Shown here in pieces: positions 4,429 to 46,276 of a stretch of 64,000 nt of DNA. Where the stretch lies: the NCBI RefSeq assembly GCF_900636535.1, contig NZ_LR134289.1:4985501-5049500 (forward strand), read 5' to 3'. The stretch is from Chryseobacterium gleum (GTDB taxonomy: Bacteria > Bacteroidota > Bacteroidia > Flavobacteriales > Weeksellaceae). The notes below the pieces were generated by a model. That model saw nothing but the letters and a program-made list of their open reading frames with translations. It was not told the DNA's origin and searched no databases. The translations under genes and the position numbers were made by a program. Numbering within the stretch: the first letter of the stretch is position 1; every line of letters begins with the position of its first letter.

Positions 4429-4502
4429 GATCCGGTAGTTCAGCTGGTTAGAATGCCGCCCTGTCACGGCGGAGGTCGCGGGTTCGAGTCCCGTCCGGAT
4501 CG
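4429..4502 (+). tRNA. tRNA-Asp (GTC), copy 1
   Basis: A 74-base cloverleaf: acceptor GATCCGG pairs with CCGGATC, anticodon stem CCGCC/GGCGG around a GTC anticodon (CTGTCAC loop), T-loop TTCGAGT, discriminator G. The CCA end is not encoded. First of three identical copies about 106 bases apart. Confidence 0.97.
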
Positions 4503-4534
4503 CAGAAAGTTTTCTCAATTTACTTTAAAAAATT

Positions 4535-4608
4535 GATCCGGTAGTTCAGCTGGTTAGAATGCCGCCCTGTCACGGCGGAGGTCGCGGGTTCGAGTCCCGT
4601 CCGGATCG
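4535..4608 (+). tRNA. tRNA-Asp (GTC), copy 2
   Basis: Identical to the first copy over all 74 bases. The 32-base spacer before it (CAGAAAGTTTTCTCAATT...) is nearly the same as the spacer before copy 3, so the array arose by tandem duplication and is likely processed from one transcript. Confidence 0.97.
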
Positions 4609-4641
4609 CAGAAGTTTTCTCAATTTCTTTTTTAAAAAATT

Positions 4642-4715
4642 GATCCGGTAGTTCAGCTGGTTAGAATGCCGCCCTGTCACGGCGGAGGTCGCGGGTTCGA
4701 GTCCCGTCCGGATCG
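4642..4715 (+). tRNA. tRNA-Asp (GTC), copy 3, likely attachment site
   Basis: Identical to copies 1 and 2. Its downstream flank differs from the inter-tRNA spacers and leads to a tyrosine integrase at 4963, so the 3' half of this copy is the probable integration target (attL side). The matching right end is not found in the window. Confidence 0.96.
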
Positions 4716-4740
4716 CAACTACAATATCAAAGTAGTGCAA

Positions 4741-38194: not shown

Positions 38195-38452
38195 TCAATT
38201 ATCTAATTCTGAATAATATTCTTTAAAATCAAAAACTATGTCAAATAGCTCCTTAGGATGAATACGTAAACCAGTTGCTATTTCAATAAAAGTGCTTAAT
38301 TGACAATCTATCTTATCATTTGACACATCACTAATTCGCGCCGCGGTAATATTGCACTTGGCCGCAATTTTAGAATAAGGCATATCACCTTTAATTTCTT
38401 TAATTCTTTCAGCGACTAATTTCTTGATTTCGTTAGTCTTAAATTCACTCAT
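38195..38452 (-). CDS. XRE-family HTH regulator
   Basis: An 85-residue Cro/CI-type helix-turn-helix protein: VAERIKEIKGDMPYSKIAAKCNITAARISDVSNDKIDCQLSTFIEIATGLRIHPKELFD. The helix-turn-helix is at about residues 25-48. It reads left, away from a 38-bp perfect palindrome 35 bases upstream of its start and from the divergent promoter at 38531. It is likely to repress its own gene and the rightward transcript. The size is that of phage- or island-type repressors. Confidence 0.85.
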   Translation of the reverse strand: MSEFKTNEIKKLVAERIKEIKGDMPYSKIAAKCNITAARISDVSNDKIDCQLSTFIEIATGLRIHPKELFDIVFDFKEYYSELDN

Positions 38453-38487
38453 AATTGCACTGTTTATTGCAATTTCACATTTATTAC

Positions 38488-38525
38488 AATATTTATCATT
38501 ACCGAATTCGGTAATGATAAATATT
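38488..38525. promoter_or_regulatory. 38-bp perfect palindrome, likely XRE operator
   Basis: AATATTTATCATTACCGAA at 38488-38506 is followed directly by its exact reverse complement to 38525, with no mismatch and no spacer. It lies between the XRE gene and a rightward TATATTTG promoter element six bases further on. Confidence 0.85.
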
Positions 38526-38530
38526 TTTAT

Positions 38531-38538
38531 TATATTTG
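38531..38538 (+). promoter_or_regulatory. Rightward promoter -7 element
   Basis: TATATTTG fits TAnnTTTG. The -33 region would fall inside the 38-bp palindrome, so repression there is plausible. The transcript would begin near 38545 and run into the folded stretch. Confidence 0.5.
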
Positions 38539-38607
38539 GAACAAATTACTTATTAAAGTAATTTTGCGATACTTCAAAGAATTATAGAAGCTATTGCTTA
38601 GAACCTC

Positions 38608-38728
38608 GTACTAGAAAATCGCCAATTTTCAAAACAAATGCAACGAGACCATAAGTAAAGTAGCTCACGCTTCGGCGTGGGCTCACTTACGGAGTTTGTT
38701 GCAAGGTGTTTGGCGATACCTCTAGTAC
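38608..38728 (+). ncRNA. Strongly folded element, RNA or DNA, unknown class
   Basis: Five nested stems pair in order: GTACTAGA 38608-38615 with 38721-38728; ATCGCCAA 38618-38625 with 38710-38717; TGCAAC 38639-38644 with 38698-38703; CCATAAGT 38649-38656 with 38685-38692 (one mismatch); GCTCACGC 38663-38670 with 38675-38682 (one G-T pair) around a TTCG tetraloop. It is richer in G and C than the surroundings and lies 70 bases after a promoter-like TATATTTG. No open frame fits it. I do not recognise the class; strand is inferred from that promoter. Confidence 0.55.
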
Positions 38729-38736
38729 AAGCGATG

Positions 38737-39116
38737 ATGTAGTGAGTCCACGCTGTTTTTAATTCCAATGCTGTTCGTTCACTCTACATTACAATCTAAG
38801 CCCTGCTTACAAAATAGTATCATGCACGATACAATAGGAGGGTACAACCTATTGAGGCAATAAAATGCCAACTTGGGACACAGATTTCATTCATATTAAA
38901 TTCTTTCCGGTGCCTTGCGGTCACTGCTTGCAGAACCTCACCAGTCCTTTTTCATACCAAAGGGCATTAGGAAAGTCTTTACATTATCCACATGAATCAA
39001 CAATAGCAAAATTAAAATCAGAAGAAAAAAGAAAAAGCCCCTTCCCATACAGTTTGGAGACCTAAGGGAAAGAGCTGAAATCAGTTATTAATTAAATTAA
39101 AAACCTTTACAAATCT
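38737..39116 (+). other. Further structured leader up to the SusC gene
   Basis: ATGTAGTGA (38737-38745) can pair with TCAC-TC-TACAT (to 38788) with a two-base bulge. CAATAGG (38832-38838) pairs with CCTATTG (38848-38854). A 66-codon frame at 38865 crosses this stretch but has no signal peptide or family likeness and I do not accept it. The stretch may be the 5' leader of the SusC gene or a separate RNA. Confidence 0.4.
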
Positions 39117-42100
39117 ATGAAAAAATCCTATTACAATATAGGAGGTATTTTCTTTGGCCTTATGCTGACAACAGTAAGTATCAATACACAGGCTCAAACA
39201 CGCACCATTTCCGGTACCGTAACTTCGTCAGACAAACCACTTTCGGGAGTTGTCATTTCTCAGGAAGGAAGCGACCAAGTAACCATTACCGGCAATAACG
39301 GAACCTACCGAATGGAGGTTAATACAGAAAATCCCATCCTATTGTTCAGACATCCTGATTATGCAGAAGTAAAAATTACAGCAAATAATCAGACCGTCGT
39401 AAATGTCAGCTTAGAACAGAAAGTAAAGGGAATCGAAGAAGTTATTCTCAACGCAGGCTACTACAAGGTTAGAGACAGAGAAAGAACCGGTAGTATCGCC
39501 AAAGTTTCAGCAAAAGATATAGAGAATCAGCCAGTCACCAATGTTCTTTCAGCGGCGCAGGGTAGAATGGCAGGGGTTAACATTACTCAAAGCACAGGAG
39601 TTGCAGGTGGCGGTTATGATGTACAGATCAGAGGAAGAAACAGTCTCAGAACCCTATCCAATAGTCCTGTGGACGGAAATCAGCCTCTATATGTTTTAGA
39701 CGGAGTGCCTATGGCCACATCAGTTACCTCAACATTTTCTGCACAGATCTTACCATTCAGAAATATCAACCCGTTGAATAGCATAAGTCCCAATGACATT
39801 GAAAGCCTGGAAATCTTAAAAGACGCTGATGCCACTGCTATTTATGGAAGCAGGGGAGCTAATGGTGTGATCTTAATTACAACTAAAAAAGGAATTAAGA
39901 ATAAATCCAGTATCACGGTTAATTCAAGTCTGGCTTTCAGCAGTGTAGCATCAAGGATGAAAATGATGAATACCGCAGAATACATCCAGATGAGAAAATC
40001 TGCATTTGCCAATGACAATATTTTAATGTTGCCGGCTACGGCTTACGATATCAATGGTGCATGGGATCAATCCCGCTCTACCGATTGGCAGAAAGAATTA
40101 ACAGGTAAAACAGCAACAACGTCGAATACCAATGTGGGACTATCGGGAGGCTCAGACGGATGGACTTACCGGATCAATGTTACCCATAATGAACAGACAA
40201 CGGTTTACCCAGCTGATTATCAGTATAAGAATAATGTTTTATCAATGGGATTTACCCACAGATCGAAAGATAAAAAGCTGAATATTGCTCTTGCAAATAA
40301 TTTTTCGCAGCAGTTCAATAATGTCATTAATGAAGATATGACCAATATCGGTTTGTCTTTGAGCCCCAATGCTCCTACGCTTTATAATGTTGATGGCTCA
40401 TTGAATTGGCAAAATAACACCTTTACCAATCCCATAGCATCAACATTAGCTACTTATCAAAACGATACCAAGCAGATCAGCAACAGTTTAAATGTGTCTT
40501 ATCAGCTTTTTCCAAACATTAATTTTAACATTAATTCAGGATTCAATTATCAGAATTTTGAAGAATTTAACCTGCGACCTCATACAAGGTATAATCCTGC
40601 CTTTAACTTTACGAGTTCAAATGGGTCAAGTACCTTCACGAGTTCATTTTCCTCATTTTCATATAACGTGGAACCACAGATTACCGGGGACTTTGTGTTG
40701 GGAAGAAATAAAGTCAGTGTTCTACTGGGAGCTACTGTTAATTCTTTGGAGTCAAAACAGTCTTCTATTCAGGGTTCAGGATTTGAAAGCAATGCATTAA
40801 TGATGAATATTAATGCAGCAAAAACAAAAATATTCTCGGATATTATTTCCACAGATTATAAATATATTGCAGCCTTCGGAAGAATAAACTATCAATTTGA
40901 CAGTAAGTATATTGTTAATCTTACCGCAAGAAGAGATGGTTCCAGCAGATTTGGACCCAATAATAGATTCGCCAACTTTGGAGCCATAGGAGCAGCCTGG
41001 TTATTTTCCAAAGAGAACTTTTTGGCAGACAGAAAATGGTTAAGTTTTGGGAAACTGAGAGGCAGTTACGGTATTGCAGGAAGTGATAATATTGGTGATG
41101 CTCAATTCAGAGACACCTATTCAGTAGCTTCATCAAGTATTTATAATGGAGTAGTAGGGCTTGTACCCACCAGGCTGTTCAATGGTAACTTTAGCTGGGA
41201 AAAAACAAAAAAGCTGGAATTTGCCCTTGAAACTTCATTTTTTTCTGATGCTATTGGAATGAATATCTCCTGGTTTAGAAACAGATCAGATAATCAACTC
41301 GTTGGACTTCCATTGCCGGCTACTACGGGCTTTACATCCGTTCAGGCTAACTTAGCGGCAACTGTTGAGAACAAAGGTTGGGAGTTTGAATTCAGAGCTA
41401 CACCCATTAAAACCAACAATTTTACTTGGGAATCCAATTTCAATCTTACGATCCCCGAAAATCGTCTTCTAGCATTTCCTAATCTGGAAGGATCCACTTT
41501 TTCCAATCAGTATGTAGTAGGTTACAGCACATCTATTGTAAAACTGTACAATTTTACGGGCGTTAATCCACTAACGGGACTTTACTCATTTACAGATGTT
41601 AACGGAGACGGTAAAATCTCAGCCCCTGATGACAATAAAAGTATTGAAGATCTTTCAGTGAAATTTTATGGAGGGTTGTCTAACAGATTACGATATAAAA
41701 ATTGGGATTTGTCCTTCTTATTCCAGTTTACAAAGCAGAGAAATTATAACTACCACAGCTATATGTCAGTTCCCGGAACGATGAATAATCAACCGCAGGT
41801 GGTTTCTGATGTATGGTCTGTGAATAATCCAAACGGTTATTACATGCCGTACACCACTGGTGTAAATGCAACAAAAAATGCTGCGCATACCAATTTTATG
41901 AGAAGTACAGCAGCTGTTGGCGATGCATCATTGATAAGGTTAAAAAATATCCAGCTTAATTACAGGCTGCCCCTTCAAAATTCTGTTATCTCTGAAGTGA
42001 TGATTTATGTTCAGGGTCAAAATGTGATTATATGGACAAACTATTTCGGTCTTGATCCAGAGTTTGTTGCCACAGGATATTTACCACCCTTAAGAACATG

Positions 42101-42128
42101 GTCCATAGGAACTCAGATTAATTTTTAA
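39117..42128 (+). CDS. SusC/RagA-type TonB-dependent outer-membrane transporter
   Basis: A 1003-residue receptor: signal peptide ending NTQAQ, a carboxypeptidase-like domain (RTISGTVTSSDKPLSGVVISQEGS), plug domain (ENQPVTNVLSAAQGRMAGVNITQ... YVLDGVPM... EILKDADATAIYGSRGANGVILITTKKG) and a 22-strand barrel ending INF. It takes up its ligand with energy from TonB and ExbBD; the SusD lid follows ten bases later. With the S9 peptidase and no glycan enzymes nearby, peptides are a likelier cargo than sugars, as in RagAB. Cargo inferred. Confidence 0.94.
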   Translation: MKKSYYNIGGIFFGLMLTTVSINTQAQTRTISGTVTSSDKPLSGVVISQEGSDQVTITGNNGTYRMEVNTENPILLFRHPDYAEVKITANNQTVVNVSLEQKVKGIEEVILNAGYYKVRDRERTGSIAKVSAKDIENQPVTNVLSAAQGRMAGVNITQSTGVAGGGYDVQIRGRNSLRTLSNSPVDGNQPLYVLDGVPMATSVTSTFSAQILPFRNINPLNSISPNDIESLEILKDADATAIYGSRGANGVILITTKKGIKNKSSITVNSSLAFSSVASRMKMMNTAEYIQMRKSAFANDNILMLPATAYDINGAWDQSRSTDWQKELTGKTATTSNTNVGLSGGSDGWTYRINVTHNEQTTVYPADYQYKNNVLSMGFTHRSKDKKLNIALANNFSQQFNNVINEDMTNIGLSLSPNAPTLYNVDGSLNWQNNTFTNPIASTLATYQNDTKQISNSLNVSYQLFPNINFNINSGFNYQNFEEFNLRPHTRYNPAFNFTSSNGSSTFTSSFSSFSYNVEPQITGDFVLGRNKVSVLLGATVNSLESKQSSIQGSGFESNALMMNINAAKTKIFSDIISTDYKYIAAFGRINYQFDSKYIVNLTARRDGSSRFGPNNRFANFGAIGAAWLFSKENFLADRKWLSFGKLRGSYGIAGSDNIGDAQFRDTYSVASSSIYNGVVGLVPTRLFNGNFSWEKTKKLEFALETSFFSDAIGMNISWFRNRSDNQLVGLPLPATTGFTSVQANLAATVENKGWEFEFRATPIKTNNFTWESNFNLTIPENRLLAFPNLEGSTFSNQYVVGYSTSIVKLYNFTGVNPLTGLYSFTDVNGDGKISAPDDNKSIEDLSVKFYGGLSNRLRYKNWDLSFLFQFTKQRNYNYHSYMSVPGTMNNQPQVVSDVWSVNNPNGYYMPYTTGVNATKNAAHTNFMRSTAAVGDASLIRLKNIQLNYRLPLQNSVISEVMIYVQGQNVIIWTNYFGLDPEFVATGYLPPLRTWSIGTQINF

Positions 42129-42138
42129 AATTAAAAAA

Positions 42139-43527
42139 ATGAAAAATAATATATTCAATACATTGAAAAGTGTTTCAATAAGCTTAGTCCTGTTGGGATC
42201 GATATCATGTGAACAGTTTATCAATACAGAACTTCCCTATAATCAAATTGGAAACACGGAAGTGTTTGCAGATGTCTCATCAGCCAATGCCGCCCTTGCA
42301 GGACTGTACGCCGAACTTTGGAGCAGCTCGATGATTTCAGGAGATGCGACAGGTGGAGCTGCTATTCTTGGAACGTATACGGATGATCTCAACTGTTATT
42401 CCCCATACGTTCAGAATGGTCTTGTTGATATTTACAACAATGTACAGATTCCAAGCAATACGATTATCTACAATTTTTGGTCGAGAGCATATAAACACAT
42501 TTATTATGCAAACTCAATTATTAAAGGTGTAAGGGAATCAACCTCTATTTCACAGGCAAACAAAGATCGATTAATTGGAGAAGCTACGGTTATACGCTCG
42601 ATTTTATATTTCAACTTGTCACAGATTTTTGATGACATTCCGTATACCGATACAACGGATTATGTTTACAACAGTCAATTAAAAAAGATGTCGAAGAGCC
42701 AACTTATGTCATATCTTGAAAATGATCTGAAAGGCAGCATTAGTATTCTGAATGACCAATATGCTAATCAGGAAAGAATCTACATCAATAAAAAAACGGC
42801 GGAGCTATTACTGGCAAAAGTTTTAATGATGGATGACAAATGGAGTGAAGCAGAAATTCTGTTATCCCAGATTATTCAATCACCGCTTTACACTTGGGAA
42901 TCTGATTTAAGTAAGGTTTTTATTAAAACAGGAAAGCACATTTTGTGGCAGTTAAAGCCGGCGAACTCAACGGATGCGACAAAAGAATTTATCATGTTCA
43001 ATTTTACAACAAGTCTGCCAACATCTTTTTCGCTGTCAGATGCTTTAGTCAATTCTTTTGAAACAGGAGATTTAAGAAAGCAGGCTTGGATAATTTCTAC
43101 AGTAATCAATCAGAAAACCTATTTCCGTCCATTGAAGTATAAGAATCCTGTCAATGCCAATTCGACCGAAGACTCCGTCATCTTTAGAATTGAGGAAGTG
43201 TACCTTTTATATGCTGAATGCATGGCTCAACAGAATAAACTATCTGAAGCTAAAGCAGCTGTTGACAAAATCAGACAGCGAGCAGGACTTAGTCCTTTAC
43301 CTTTTGGTCTTTCAAAAGATGGGCTCATTGATAAAATGATGGAAGAATCAAGACATGAGTTTTTTGCAGAAATGGGTCATCGATTCTATGATCTAAAAAG
43401 ATTTAAAAAATTAACCTTGCTTCCTCTAACAAAACCCAGCTGGAAAACTTTTCACAGTGCTTTTCCTATTCCGGAAAAAGAACTGGTCATTAATCCAAAT
43501 CTTAATCCACAAAATTTCGGGTACTGA
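42139..43527 (+). CDS. SusD/RagB-type surface lipoprotein
   Basis: A 462-residue lipoprotein (lipobox G-S-I-S-C at about residue 24) of the SusD/RagB family: N-terminal QFINTELPYNQI, TPR-like helices (KTAELLLAKVLMMDDKWSEAEILLSQII) and the C-terminal RIEEVYLLYAECMAQQNKLSEAKAAVDKIRQRAGL...ESRHEFFAEMGHRFYDLKRF. It is the hinged lid of the SusC barrel. Its stop TGA overlaps the peptidase ATG by one base, linking all three in one transcript. Confidence 0.94.
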   Translation: MKNNIFNTLKSVSISLVLLGSISCEQFINTELPYNQIGNTEVFADVSSANAALAGLYAELWSSSMISGDATGGAAILGTYTDDLNCYSPYVQNGLVDIYNNVQIPSNTIIYNFWSRAYKHIYYANSIIKGVRESTSISQANKDRLIGEATVIRSILYFNLSQIFDDIPYTDTTDYVYNSQLKKMSKSQLMSYLENDLKGSISILNDQYANQERIYINKKTAELLLAKVLMMDDKWSEAEILLSQIIQSPLYTWESDLSKVFIKTGKHILWQLKPANSTDATKEFIMFNFTTSLPTSFSLSDALVNSFETGDLRKQAWIISTVINQKTYFRPLKYKNPVNANSTEDSVIFRIEEVYLLYAECMAQQNKLSEAKAAVDKIRQRAGLSPLPFGLSKDGLIDKMMEESRHEFFAEMGHRFYDLKRFKKLTLLPLTKPSWKTFHSAFPIPEKELVINPNLNPQNFGY

Positions 43528-45962
43528 TGAAAACTTTTTTAATATTCGTATTGTTTTTCTTAATCCAGCAAGTATTTTCTCAGGAGAAAAGTGAAATGGC
43601 ATCGAGAGAAAAATATGATAACTATGACATTAATCTGAAAGATACTTCATTAGACGGCAAGTGGCTGGCATTTTATAAAGTGTATGATGACAACAGTGAT
43701 ACTCTTGTGATCGTAAATCGGAACAATCCCGACAAGCAATATCAGAAAGTAAAAGTACAAGATCACAAGTGGAGTAACGACCGACTAGTGCTGAAGTATA
43801 ATGACCATACAGAAGTTTTTGATTATAATAAAAATAAACAATGGGAATTACCTGCATGTAAAAGCTTTGGAATGATTCCTAAAGATCATTTATTGGCACT
43901 ATACAGTTCTGACACAGTTAAGGTCTATGATTTGAAAAATGAACAGTTACTGGATAAGATAGGATTAGTTTCTAACGTTTTTTTTCATGATGATACAATT
44001 TGTATGCAAGTTAAAAATGGAACTGAGTATGACCTAGTTGACTTAAAAAATAATGGCATCGTATCTTTGTACAAAACACCTAATACTATATTTAGTGTAA
44101 AGTTTCTCAGAAATCATTCTTTACTAATTTTTGAAAAAAAAGATGGAAACATTCAAGACATTGTATATTATAATGGGTTTTCAAAAAAAACATTCAAGTT
44201 TGCGCAAGTACTAAAGCCTCAATTTAATTCTGCTACCGGATACCAAAGAAATGATGGAAGCATAATAATCACTACGGAAAAGACAAAGGTCAAAAGACAA
44301 TCTTCTGATCCTGAAGTTTGGTTAACATCAGATAACAATCTTATACAGAAATTTAAAAATACTGTACCAGGTCAATTTCTTTGGCAACCAGAAGAAAAAA
44401 AGATTCTTAAGTTGGGAACTAAGAACCTAGAGAGAGTCGTAGATATCAATAATGACAACTATTTTTTGACGTTCAGCTTTTCCCAAATGCAGGATTATAC
44501 GACAAAACAGGTTTCATCAAAAGTTTACAGATTTGATCAAAGAAACGAAGAATTTAAATATGTTGATACGATAAAAGAAATCGCTTTTTATTCGCCGGGT
44601 GGTCAGTATATAATTTATAAAAAAAATAAATTTTGGAAACTATTAAATATTAATACGTTACAGTATACAGAGATTAAAGATAACTCTTTTGCCAATGTCT
44701 ATTTTACAAAAAATAACAAGATCATATTTGACGGATCGGAGGGACTTTGGGAATACGATATAAAAACAGATCATCTTAAACTCAGTTACAGAGATGAACC
44801 GGGAATTTACAAGATTCTTACCTATGACTATTCAGGCAATTTTCTAAATTATCTTTTAGAAATCAATTTTCGTAGTCGAGGGCTTAATGAGAATAGTTTT
44901 ATGTTTGAAGTTTATGATCCATCTACGTTAGTGAAATCATTTTATGAGAAAACCAATACAAAATATTTACCTCTGATTAAAACTACCACTTCAAAACTGG
45001 TTTATCAGAAAACTGATATTTCAAAAAACAGTTACGTTTTTACAGAAGAAAACTATAATCTGCCTAAGCAATTGATCACTTTGAGCAGGTCAGAAAAAAA
45101 GAAGGTAGTTTATCAGTCAAATAGAGGGGATAAAGCACAAGCAGATTTTCGAATAGAAACCATTCATTATCAAAACAGTGAGCATGCTAATCTTAAAGGG
45201 ACATTGCATTATCCTCTCAATTATATTCCATCTAAACGCTATCCATTGATCGTCCATGTGTATGAGATACAAAGTGACAAACGCAATGAATACCCGGTAT
45301 TCTTGGAACAAAATATAACTGAAGGCTTTGATATCCGATCTCTTTTGGAACAAGGATATTTCGTTTATATGCCTGACATTGTTTTTGATAAACGGGGAAC
45401 AGGCATATCGGCACTGGACTGCGTGAATAAATCTCTTGATGCAATAAGTGGTTACAATTCAATAGATTTTGATAAGATAGGGATGATTGGTCATTCGCAC
45501 GGAGGTTACATCACCAATTTTGTTGCAACCCATTCAAATCGATTTGCAACCTACATAGCAGGTTCAGGATATAGTGATATTGTTCGCTCCTATTTTTCAA
45601 TGAGTTTTCATTATATGAGTCCGCTTTATTGGCAGTATGAAAACGGACAATTTAATTTAAAAACTTCTTTTTTGGAAGATAAGGAACTTTATTTCCGCAA
45701 TAATCCAGTTTATTATGTGGAAAATGTTTCAAGACCCATCTTGTTATGGACAGGAAAAAAAGATCTGAATGTTGAGTGGGGGCAATCGATGGAATTTTAT
45801 ATCGGGCTTAAGCGAAATAAAAAAGAGGCTACATTGCTCATATATCCAGAGGAAGGACATTATATAGCTTCCAGGTCGAGTTCGAAGGATCTTTTTCAAA
45901 AAACGATGGAATGGTTAGGACACCATTTGAAAGGAGAAGAAAAACCAGCATGGACAGAATAA
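43527..45962 (+). CDS. S9-family prolyl oligopeptidase-like enzyme
   Basis: An 811-residue exported serine peptidase: signal ending QQVFSQ, a beta-propeller-like region to about residue 550 and an alpha/beta-hydrolase domain. Catalytic triad: Ser657 in G-H-S-H-G-G, Asp746 in TGKKDLN and His778 in EEGHYI. The propeller limits substrates to short peptides. Coupled by TGATG to the SusD gene, it would trim peptides before or after transport. In the same locus a small Cys-rich secreted protein is encoded, a possible substrate. Confidence 0.9.
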   Translation: MKTFLIFVLFFLIQQVFSQEKSEMASREKYDNYDINLKDTSLDGKWLAFYKVYDDNSDTLVIVNRNNPDKQYQKVKVQDHKWSNDRLVLKYNDHTEVFDYNKNKQWELPACKSFGMIPKDHLLALYSSDTVKVYDLKNEQLLDKIGLVSNVFFHDDTICMQVKNGTEYDLVDLKNNGIVSLYKTPNTIFSVKFLRNHSLLIFEKKDGNIQDIVYYNGFSKKTFKFAQVLKPQFNSATGYQRNDGSIIITTEKTKVKRQSSDPEVWLTSDNNLIQKFKNTVPGQFLWQPEEKKILKLGTKNLERVVDINNDNYFLTFSFSQMQDYTTKQVSSKVYRFDQRNEEFKYVDTIKEIAFYSPGGQYIIYKKNKFWKLLNINTLQYTEIKDNSFANVYFTKNNKIIFDGSEGLWEYDIKTDHLKLSYRDEPGIYKILTYDYSGNFLNYLLEINFRSRGLNENSFMFEVYDPSTLVKSFYEKTNTKYLPLIKTTTSKLVYQKTDISKNSYVFTEENYNLPKQLITLSRSEKKKVVYQSNRGDKAQADFRIETIHYQNSEHANLKGTLHYPLNYIPSKRYPLIVHVYEIQSDKRNEYPVFLEQNITEGFDIRSLLEQGYFVYMPDIVFDKRGTGISALDCVNKSLDAISGYNSIDFDKIGMIGHSHGGYITNFVATHSNRFATYIAGSGYSDIVRSYFSMSFHYMSPLYWQYENGQFNLKTSFLEDKELYFRNNPVYYVENVSRPILLWTGKKDLNVEWGQSMEFYIGLKRNKKEATLLIYPEEGHYIASRSSSKDLFQKTMEWLGHHLKGEEKPAWTE

Positions 45963-45968
45963 AAATAA

Positions 45969-45999
45969 GAAGGATGCCGAAAGGCATCCTTCACTTTTT
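45969..45999. terminator. Two-way intrinsic terminator
   Basis: GAAGGATGCC and GGCATCCTTC form a perfect 10-bp stem with a GAAA tetraloop. ACTTTTT follows on the plus side and TTATTTTT on the minus side, so it ends both the peptidase and the DUF6520 transcripts. Confidence 0.9.
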
Positions 46000-46276
46000 A
46001 ATTTCTATATAATGTCTGTCCGCATTCCGTATCGCTGAGATATGACTGCATTACTTTTGGTGAACCGTTGACCAATTCGGTGCAAACTGTACCACCAATG
46101 ACATCACAGTCAATTTCTCCAAATGGAATACATTTCTCAGCTGGAGCAGCTGGGTCAAAATGATAAGCAAAAATACTTGCTTTCTTCTCTGTTTTTGCTT
46201 TGTTTGTAGCAAAAGCACTTCCGACACCAAACACTAAGATGGCTACGGGAATCATGATTGTTTTAAGATTTCTCAT
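45998..46276 (-). CDS. DUF6520-type small secreted Cys protein
   Basis: A 92-residue protein: signal peptide (MRNLKTIMIPVAILVFGVGSAFA), a basic linker and a mature part of about 70 residues with four cysteines, C-I-P-F-G-E-I-D-C, T-V-C and T-E-C-G. I recognise the layout from the DUF6520/NVEALA-like small exported proteins of Bacteroidetes. Even cysteine number suggests two disulfides. A MauE/DoxX-type protein, which can support disulfide formation, is encoded just upstream in the same direction. Role unknown; signal peptide or small effector are possibilities. Confidence 0.7.
   Translation of the reverse strand: MRNLKTIMIPVAILVFGVGSAFATNKAKTEKKASIFAYHFDPAAPAEKCIPFGEIDCDVIGGTVCTELVNGSPKVMQSYLSDTECGQTLYRN

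Follow-up and report, generated by a model that had tools for sequence, protein, structure and literature searches.

What is the function of the strongly folded, non-coding element that lies upstream of a susC-like operon in the 64,000-nucleotide stretch of Chryseobacterium gleum DNA analysed here (the window)? A preliminary description of the sequence had offered, among other candidates, a regulatory RNA, a long leader of the SusC gene and a DNA hairpin used in transfer. The operon begins with a susC-like gene for a TonB-dependent receptor of 1003 aa (39117..42128, plus strand; Pfam Plug and TonB beta-barrel above cut-off), followed by a susD-like gene (42139..43527, plus strand; SusD_RagB above cut-off) and, in the same direction, a prolyl-oligopeptidase-type gene (43527..45962, plus strand; Peptidase_S9 above cut-off). 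Past the 3′ end of the operon, a DUF6520 small-protein gene lies on the opposite strand (45998-46276, minus strand), and elsewhere in the window three tRNA-Asp genes with an identical anticodon stand in tandem (4429-4716). On the other side of the element is a divergent gene for an XRE-type regulator of 85 aa (38195..38452, minus strand), which itself gives only sub-threshold HTH matches (HTH_26, E 0.012); clear HTH_3 matches were obtained for the genes in the equivalent position beside loci L006, L007 and L008. A 48-nt palindrome and possible operator (38483..38530; 24-nt arms, 92% complementary) directly abuts a TAnnTTTG-type −7 box, TATATTTG (38531..38538, plus strand), the same box that had been noted upstream of the element before. 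We place the start of a proposed leader RNA from this box, and its body by folding and covariation, at 38545..38760 on the plus strand, ending with a U-tract.

The nested stems claimed for this region are present. After a 5′ hairpin (38566..38597, plus strand; helix 1 of the conserved fold, with 99.0% of cells paired) the leader contains a long hairpin of 121 nt (38608..38728, plus strand), placed by folding and covariation and proposed here as an antiterminator-like state, with the two perfect 8-bp stems already described (38608-38615/38721-38728 and 38618-38625/38710-38717), a TTCG loop at 38671-38674 and additional hairpins on its 3′ side, as had also been seen. The segment 38595-38745 folds at −52.7 kcal/mol (z −4.9), and none of 200 shuffles matched the real fold. 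For the window copy alone, the reverse complement folds better still (z −6.8); across 88 copies, the plus strand is the better folder in 79. The earlier remark that the element is GC-richer than its surroundings holds for the long hairpin against the upstream sequence (0.446 versus 0.294) and fails for the entire leader, which equals its downstream flank (0.394 versus 0.396). We also noticed by eye a putative long-range pairing around the element (GCTTAG..CTAAGC), and the SusC leaders share another conserved stretch with small hairpins after the U-tract, at about 38792-38880 in the window.

The element is not confined to this locus. Its own genome holds five close copies by blastn and eight in total with the covariance model, the three added ones being distant. 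A covariance model built from 27 sequences (R1) matched at least 152 of the 173 genomes of the host genus, at least 165 of 246 genomes of the family (18 of 33 genera) and at least 63 of 296 genomes of the order, Flavobacteriaceae among them; these leader counts are lower bounds because the RNA searches used strict filters and scored few candidates per genome, and the loci examined below are mostly their top-ranked matches. The three distant copies (L199, L200 and L201) have pairs of HTH genes upstream and a small ORF of 128, 129 or 172 aa downstream, and the one such ORF that was scanned gave a very weak receiver-domain match. We take these ORFs and HTH pairs to be parts of integrative elements.

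Comparison of the copies strongly backs the long hairpin through paired changes. Among 84 distinct sequences, which still include one spurious second match in L178 (excluded from the promoter, strand-bias, T/C-definition and fold-energy counts), 98.6% of cells in the long fold are paired, and changes on both sides of a pair number 347, against 80.2 ± 10.2 in shuffled and at most 45 in slid controls. G-U pairs are common (466 of 4,738 cells), which together with the better folding of the plus strand points to RNA, and to that strand. Compensatory changes so far above the controls, in an element with homologues in most genomes of the genus, make it more than a chance structure. The preliminary description would have been refuted by a lack of homologues and compensating changes, or by a clear match to a known class; homologues and compensating changes were found, and Rfam returned nothing above the gathering score, only weak sub-threshold matches. 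The plasmid and phage collections likewise gave no match to the element, and no description of a leader of this kind was found in the literature searched, which consisted largely of papers outside subscription.

The promoter recurs with the fold. A TAnnTTTG box stands upstream of 84 of the 85 copies counted (the three distant copies left out), at an identical distance in 77, and this motif is given as the vegetative −7 consensus of Flavobacterium psychrophilum in the sections available of PMC9723704. Other copies carry inverted repeats of their own before the box, mostly weaker than the palindrome of the window, with a mean score of 8.1 versus 5.5 for shuffled sequence and scores of at least 10 in 21 of 85 copies. 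An earlier pass, in which 62 of 80 loci could be parsed and 18 failed a strict pattern, found a short divergent ORF upstream in 59 of the 62, with 58 of these 59 forming one blastp cluster. In Flavobacteriaceae such an ORF precedes the element in 18 of 20 loci; of three of these ORFs that were scanned, two gave HTH matches below the cut-offs and one had no match. We infer from this arrangement that the XRE protein may control the leader promoter.

The long hairpin contains a strand that has a second possible partner. This strand (T; GGCGTGGGCTCACTTA, 38674..38689, plus strand), which begins GGCGTGGGCTC, has complements in two places, one being the 5′ arm of the hairpin's terminal stem and the other a strand further downstream (C; 38740..38755, plus strand), after which a U-tract follows directly in the sequence (38756..38760, plus strand). 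Pairing of T with C, which is backed by covariation, would make C the 3′ arm of an intrinsic terminator. Taken from the start of T, the window RNA has a folding energy of −41.8 kcal/mol (z −6.2), and three sister copies give z values of −3.9, −6.9 and −5.1. Across copies the T:C fold is 96.1% paired with 25 both-side changes, against 6.2 ± 2.1 in shuffled and at most 10 in slid controls; on weaker measures, 18 of 500 shuffles reach the count of pairs with both-side changes and 39 of 500 the number of pair types. In all seven T classes the element's own C fits its T better than does the C of elements with another T, and the complementarity also looks kept in the distant copies. No more than 4 nt separate the T:C stem from the U-tract in 92 of 93 copies (of 96, the three distant ones omitted) and in 18 of 20 Flavobacteriaceae loci. 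Because strand C was defined by requiring a U-run in 105 rows, the U-run in those rows is not an independent count; L028, which has no readable T, was omitted from the T/C rows. The terminal stem, in which T pairs upstream, is 98.3% paired with zero both-side changes; covariation is seen in the outer stems of that hairpin.

Transcription attenuators are built in this way, around a single strand that can take either of two mutually exclusive partners and that, with the downstream one, forms a stem running up to a U-tract. On its sequence the leader thus looks like a two-state attenuator before susC, and we infer that transcripts from the leader promoter can probably stop at the U-tract. The long hairpin is about 6 kcal/mol more stable than the terminator state, and some further factor may therefore be required to reach the stop state. 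The preliminary description had seen neither the terminator fold, nor the other copies of the element, nor the link to an RNA-guided sigma system presented below.

The genes behind the element fit its reading as a regulatory RNA and as a long leader, both of which had been proposed. TonB-receptor/SusD genes follow four of the five close copies, among them the window copy, and these four SusC loci lie at genome positions 5024045, 5251878, 2315691 and 1515276; in one of them (L009) a 176-aa gene sits between the leader and the receptor gene. In the downstream stretches fetched for 88 element loci, we found a SusC relative in 46 and a member of the 176-aa family in 43, with both in 8, so that one or the other is present in 81 of 88, and the promoter and XRE-type neighbour recur with them. 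In 19 of the 20 Flavobacteriaceae loci the downstream gene is SusC. The 176-aa family (e.g. L009:3681-4211) has no Pfam match and no meaningful match in the PDB, and a comparison of three members with PADLOC and PHROGs gave one weak match in each collection, both for the same member; it has 240 homologues, and among the 120 listed the named ones are 'hypothetical protein'. The seven loci with neither gene are the three distant copies, L118, L148, L184 and the fifth close copy of the own genome (L008), which precedes a sigma factor gene and a Cas12f-like gene.

This last copy leads to a second system. The Cas12f-like protein matches PDB entry 9n9c, 'Nuclease-deactivated Cas12f', over its full length (E 1e-158), and a sigma factor gene lies just before the dCas12f gene both in the own genome and in the twentieth Flavobacteriaceae locus (L294), where sigma and dCas12f stand behind the element in place of SusC. 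Behind the dCas12f gene is a separate conserved RNA that ends ATACAAC, or nearly so, and then continues with GGCGTGGG, a stretch shared by 29 of the 30 dCas12f loci examined in the genus and, genus g21 aside, by 9 of 10 loci taken from the family's other genera (L015 yielded no guide in this survey). We regard this RNA as guide-like, with the GGCGTGGG stretch as the guide, because of its place and of what is known of Cas12f biology. The dCas12f genes of six loci from other genera (L215, L217, L221, L222, L223 and L230) are followed by guides unlike T. The exact guide ATACAACGGCGTGGG also occurs in genome G077 (e.g. G077:C1:4786069), which has no dCas12f match, and away from the listed dCas12f genes elsewhere (e.g. 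G110:C5:9488), as possible orphan guide RNAs.

The guide of the own genome matches the switching strand of the leaders. Its pattern GGCGTGGGCTCNNTTA, with 14 fixed letters, agrees with T of the window at 14 of 14 and has five exact matches in the genome, namely the guide itself and T of four SusC leaders; the sole match with one mismatch is T of the sigma-dCas12f leader, and six others have two mismatches. With up to two mismatches this gives 12 matches, against 7 for the reversed control. Within the genus, the leader precedes the sigma gene in 22 of 30 dCas12f loci, 15 of which contain GGCGTGGGCTC. The same relation is seen in a flavobacteriaceal genome (G391; L294 and L303) whose dCas12f is 64% identical, where the guide GCGTGGGCTCTCTTATT matches T of both known leaders of that genome, one before SusC and one before sigma-dCas12f, at 16 of 17 letters. 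According to a preprint on dCas12f with sigma-E, transcription reportedly starts at a set distance from the target, beside a 5′-G. A G precedes GCGTGGG in both G391 leaders, and in T of the own genome the G lies inside GGCG if the presumed guide start is right. Four leaders with GGCGTGAGTTC (L127, L128, L132 and L143) belong to genomes whose first guide is GGGTTC, and since they are possibly close relatives we do not count them as guide/target covariation within the genus. In genus g21, 4 of 10 guides resemble parts of T (L214, L216, L219 and L220) and the others do not; in the genomes carrying three of these T-like guides (L214, L216 and L220), no target besides the guides themselves was found at up to two mismatches. 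The g21 pattern GGCTYACTTATCGTTC, at up to two mismatches, hits only the guides in G284 and G258; G281 and G214 have two places apiece, all with two mismatches, and T of leader L237 is one of the two in G281.

Taking these observations together, we lean modestly towards a two-state attenuator leader of the susC operon, beyond whose strand T a sigma-dCas12f complex would start RNA. RNA made from the leader promoter, which the XRE protein may hold in check, would be able to stop at the U-tract, with T pairing either upstream in the long hairpin or downstream with C, where together with the U-tract it would form an intrinsic terminator. Where present, sigma-dCas12f would bind T in the DNA, recruit polymerase and start RNA downstream of T, and as an RNA begun there lacks the 5′ arm of the terminator, the terminator could not form and transcription would read into susC, which begins 443 nt past the start of T. 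More tentatively, this arrangement may act as an RNA-guided bypass, in which a widespread family of bistable leaders holds transporter operons down through premature termination and the dCas12f-guided sigma factor uses their switching strand as an address, turning on a set of operons at once and perhaps its own operon too.

A rather unlikely alternative is that the leader, as an attenuator or riboswitch, answers to a ligand or protein of its own and that dCas12f later took its most invariant strand as an address, possibly with repression by a roadblock as the effect. The leader is far commoner than dCas12f, as this alternative would have it: of the 173 genomes searched in the genus, 44 gave a dCas12f match, in some only as split or stop-containing copies, while the leader occurs in at least 42 of these 44 and in at least 110 of the 129 others. 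A switch present so much more widely than dCas12f must have another input. T is moreover conserved equally with and without dCas12f (33 of 45 versus 32 of 41 rows, the one spurious L178 match still among them), so the guide does not explain its conservation; what preserves T seems to be its two pairings, with the guide making use of a strand that is invariant independently of it. The place of T, inside the transcribed part at about 128 nt past the −7 box (median of 84 copies), would also suit a roadblock. The sigma factor gene that adjoins dCas12f both here and in L294 speaks instead for initiation.

We consider it quite improbable that the guide acts on RNA, pairing with C of the nascent leader and blocking the terminator, as an antitermination in trans. 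C is complementary to the guide just as to T, as such pairing would need; the match of the G391 guide to T in DNA is gapless, however, whereas the folds predicted for pairing with C contain bulges. Cas12f guides, furthermore, act on DNA. Still less credence goes to the short terminated leader as a trans-acting small RNA, with susC as an ordinary downstream gene: a folded core conserved across many copies would suit it, and the constancy of the downstream genes, both over the 88 loci and in Flavobacteriaceae, speaks against it. The DNA hairpin for recombination or transfer of the preliminary description retains very little weight, and what favours it are the three distant copies with their presumed integrative-element neighbours; frequent G-U pairs, better folding of the plus strand in 79 of 88 copies, a promoter at a fixed distance and the U-tract all oppose it. 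Least probable of all, and rejected here, is that the element is itself the guide RNA of dCas12f, an idea favoured by the one copy directly before sigma-dCas12f and contradicted by the separate guide-ended RNA behind dCas12f and by the many genomes that have the element without a dCas12f match; comparison of the 11-mers shared within each locus brought up no convincing guide in the element.

The favoured reading, an attenuator leader bypassed by sigma-dCas12f, can be compared with systems already known. Leaders that act through an intrinsic terminator are familiar both as transcription attenuators, for example those of Bacillus trp and vmlR, and as riboswitch expression platforms. The present leader is like them in having one strand with two exclusive pairings, the downstream one at a U-tract, before the regulated gene. 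It departs from them in the long nested hairpin that supplies the 5′ partner, in having neither a known ligand nor a known leader peptide, and in that an RNA-guided sigma system carries a match to the shared strand. To our knowledge, the TldR proteins work without a sigma partner. These TnpB-like nuclease-dead repressors (PMC13418256, in the part available) share with the present system a nuclease-dead relative of TnpB/Cas12 as an RNA-guided transcription factor, and differ from it in that they repress (same source and part). The nuclease-dead Cas12f with sigma-E of PDB 9n9c resembles the present system in its full-length dCas12f, the sigma gene before it and the guide-like RNA behind it. What sets the present system apart is a single guide that fits a leader element repeated at several transporter loci and also before its own operon, and a target strand that doubles as the switching strand of the proposed attenuator. 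Conserved structured 5′ elements without an Rfam match have been described in Flavobacteriaceae (PMC9723704, in the part available), and our element is like them in kind. The leaders treated in section 19 of that work, as available, precede other genes (pheA, hisG, ftsY, acsA, alaS and rimP), and a SusC leader of this kind is not described in that section.

SusC-type loci are principal routes of nutrient entry in Bacteroidota. The element described here, an RNA family that is described neither in Rfam nor in the literature searched, would place a testable switch before many such loci, and a specific sequence match ties this leader family to RNA-guided sigma factors. Two questions are thereby made testable, namely what purpose the natural dCas12f guides serve in these bacteria and to which signal the leader responds in genomes lacking dCas12f.
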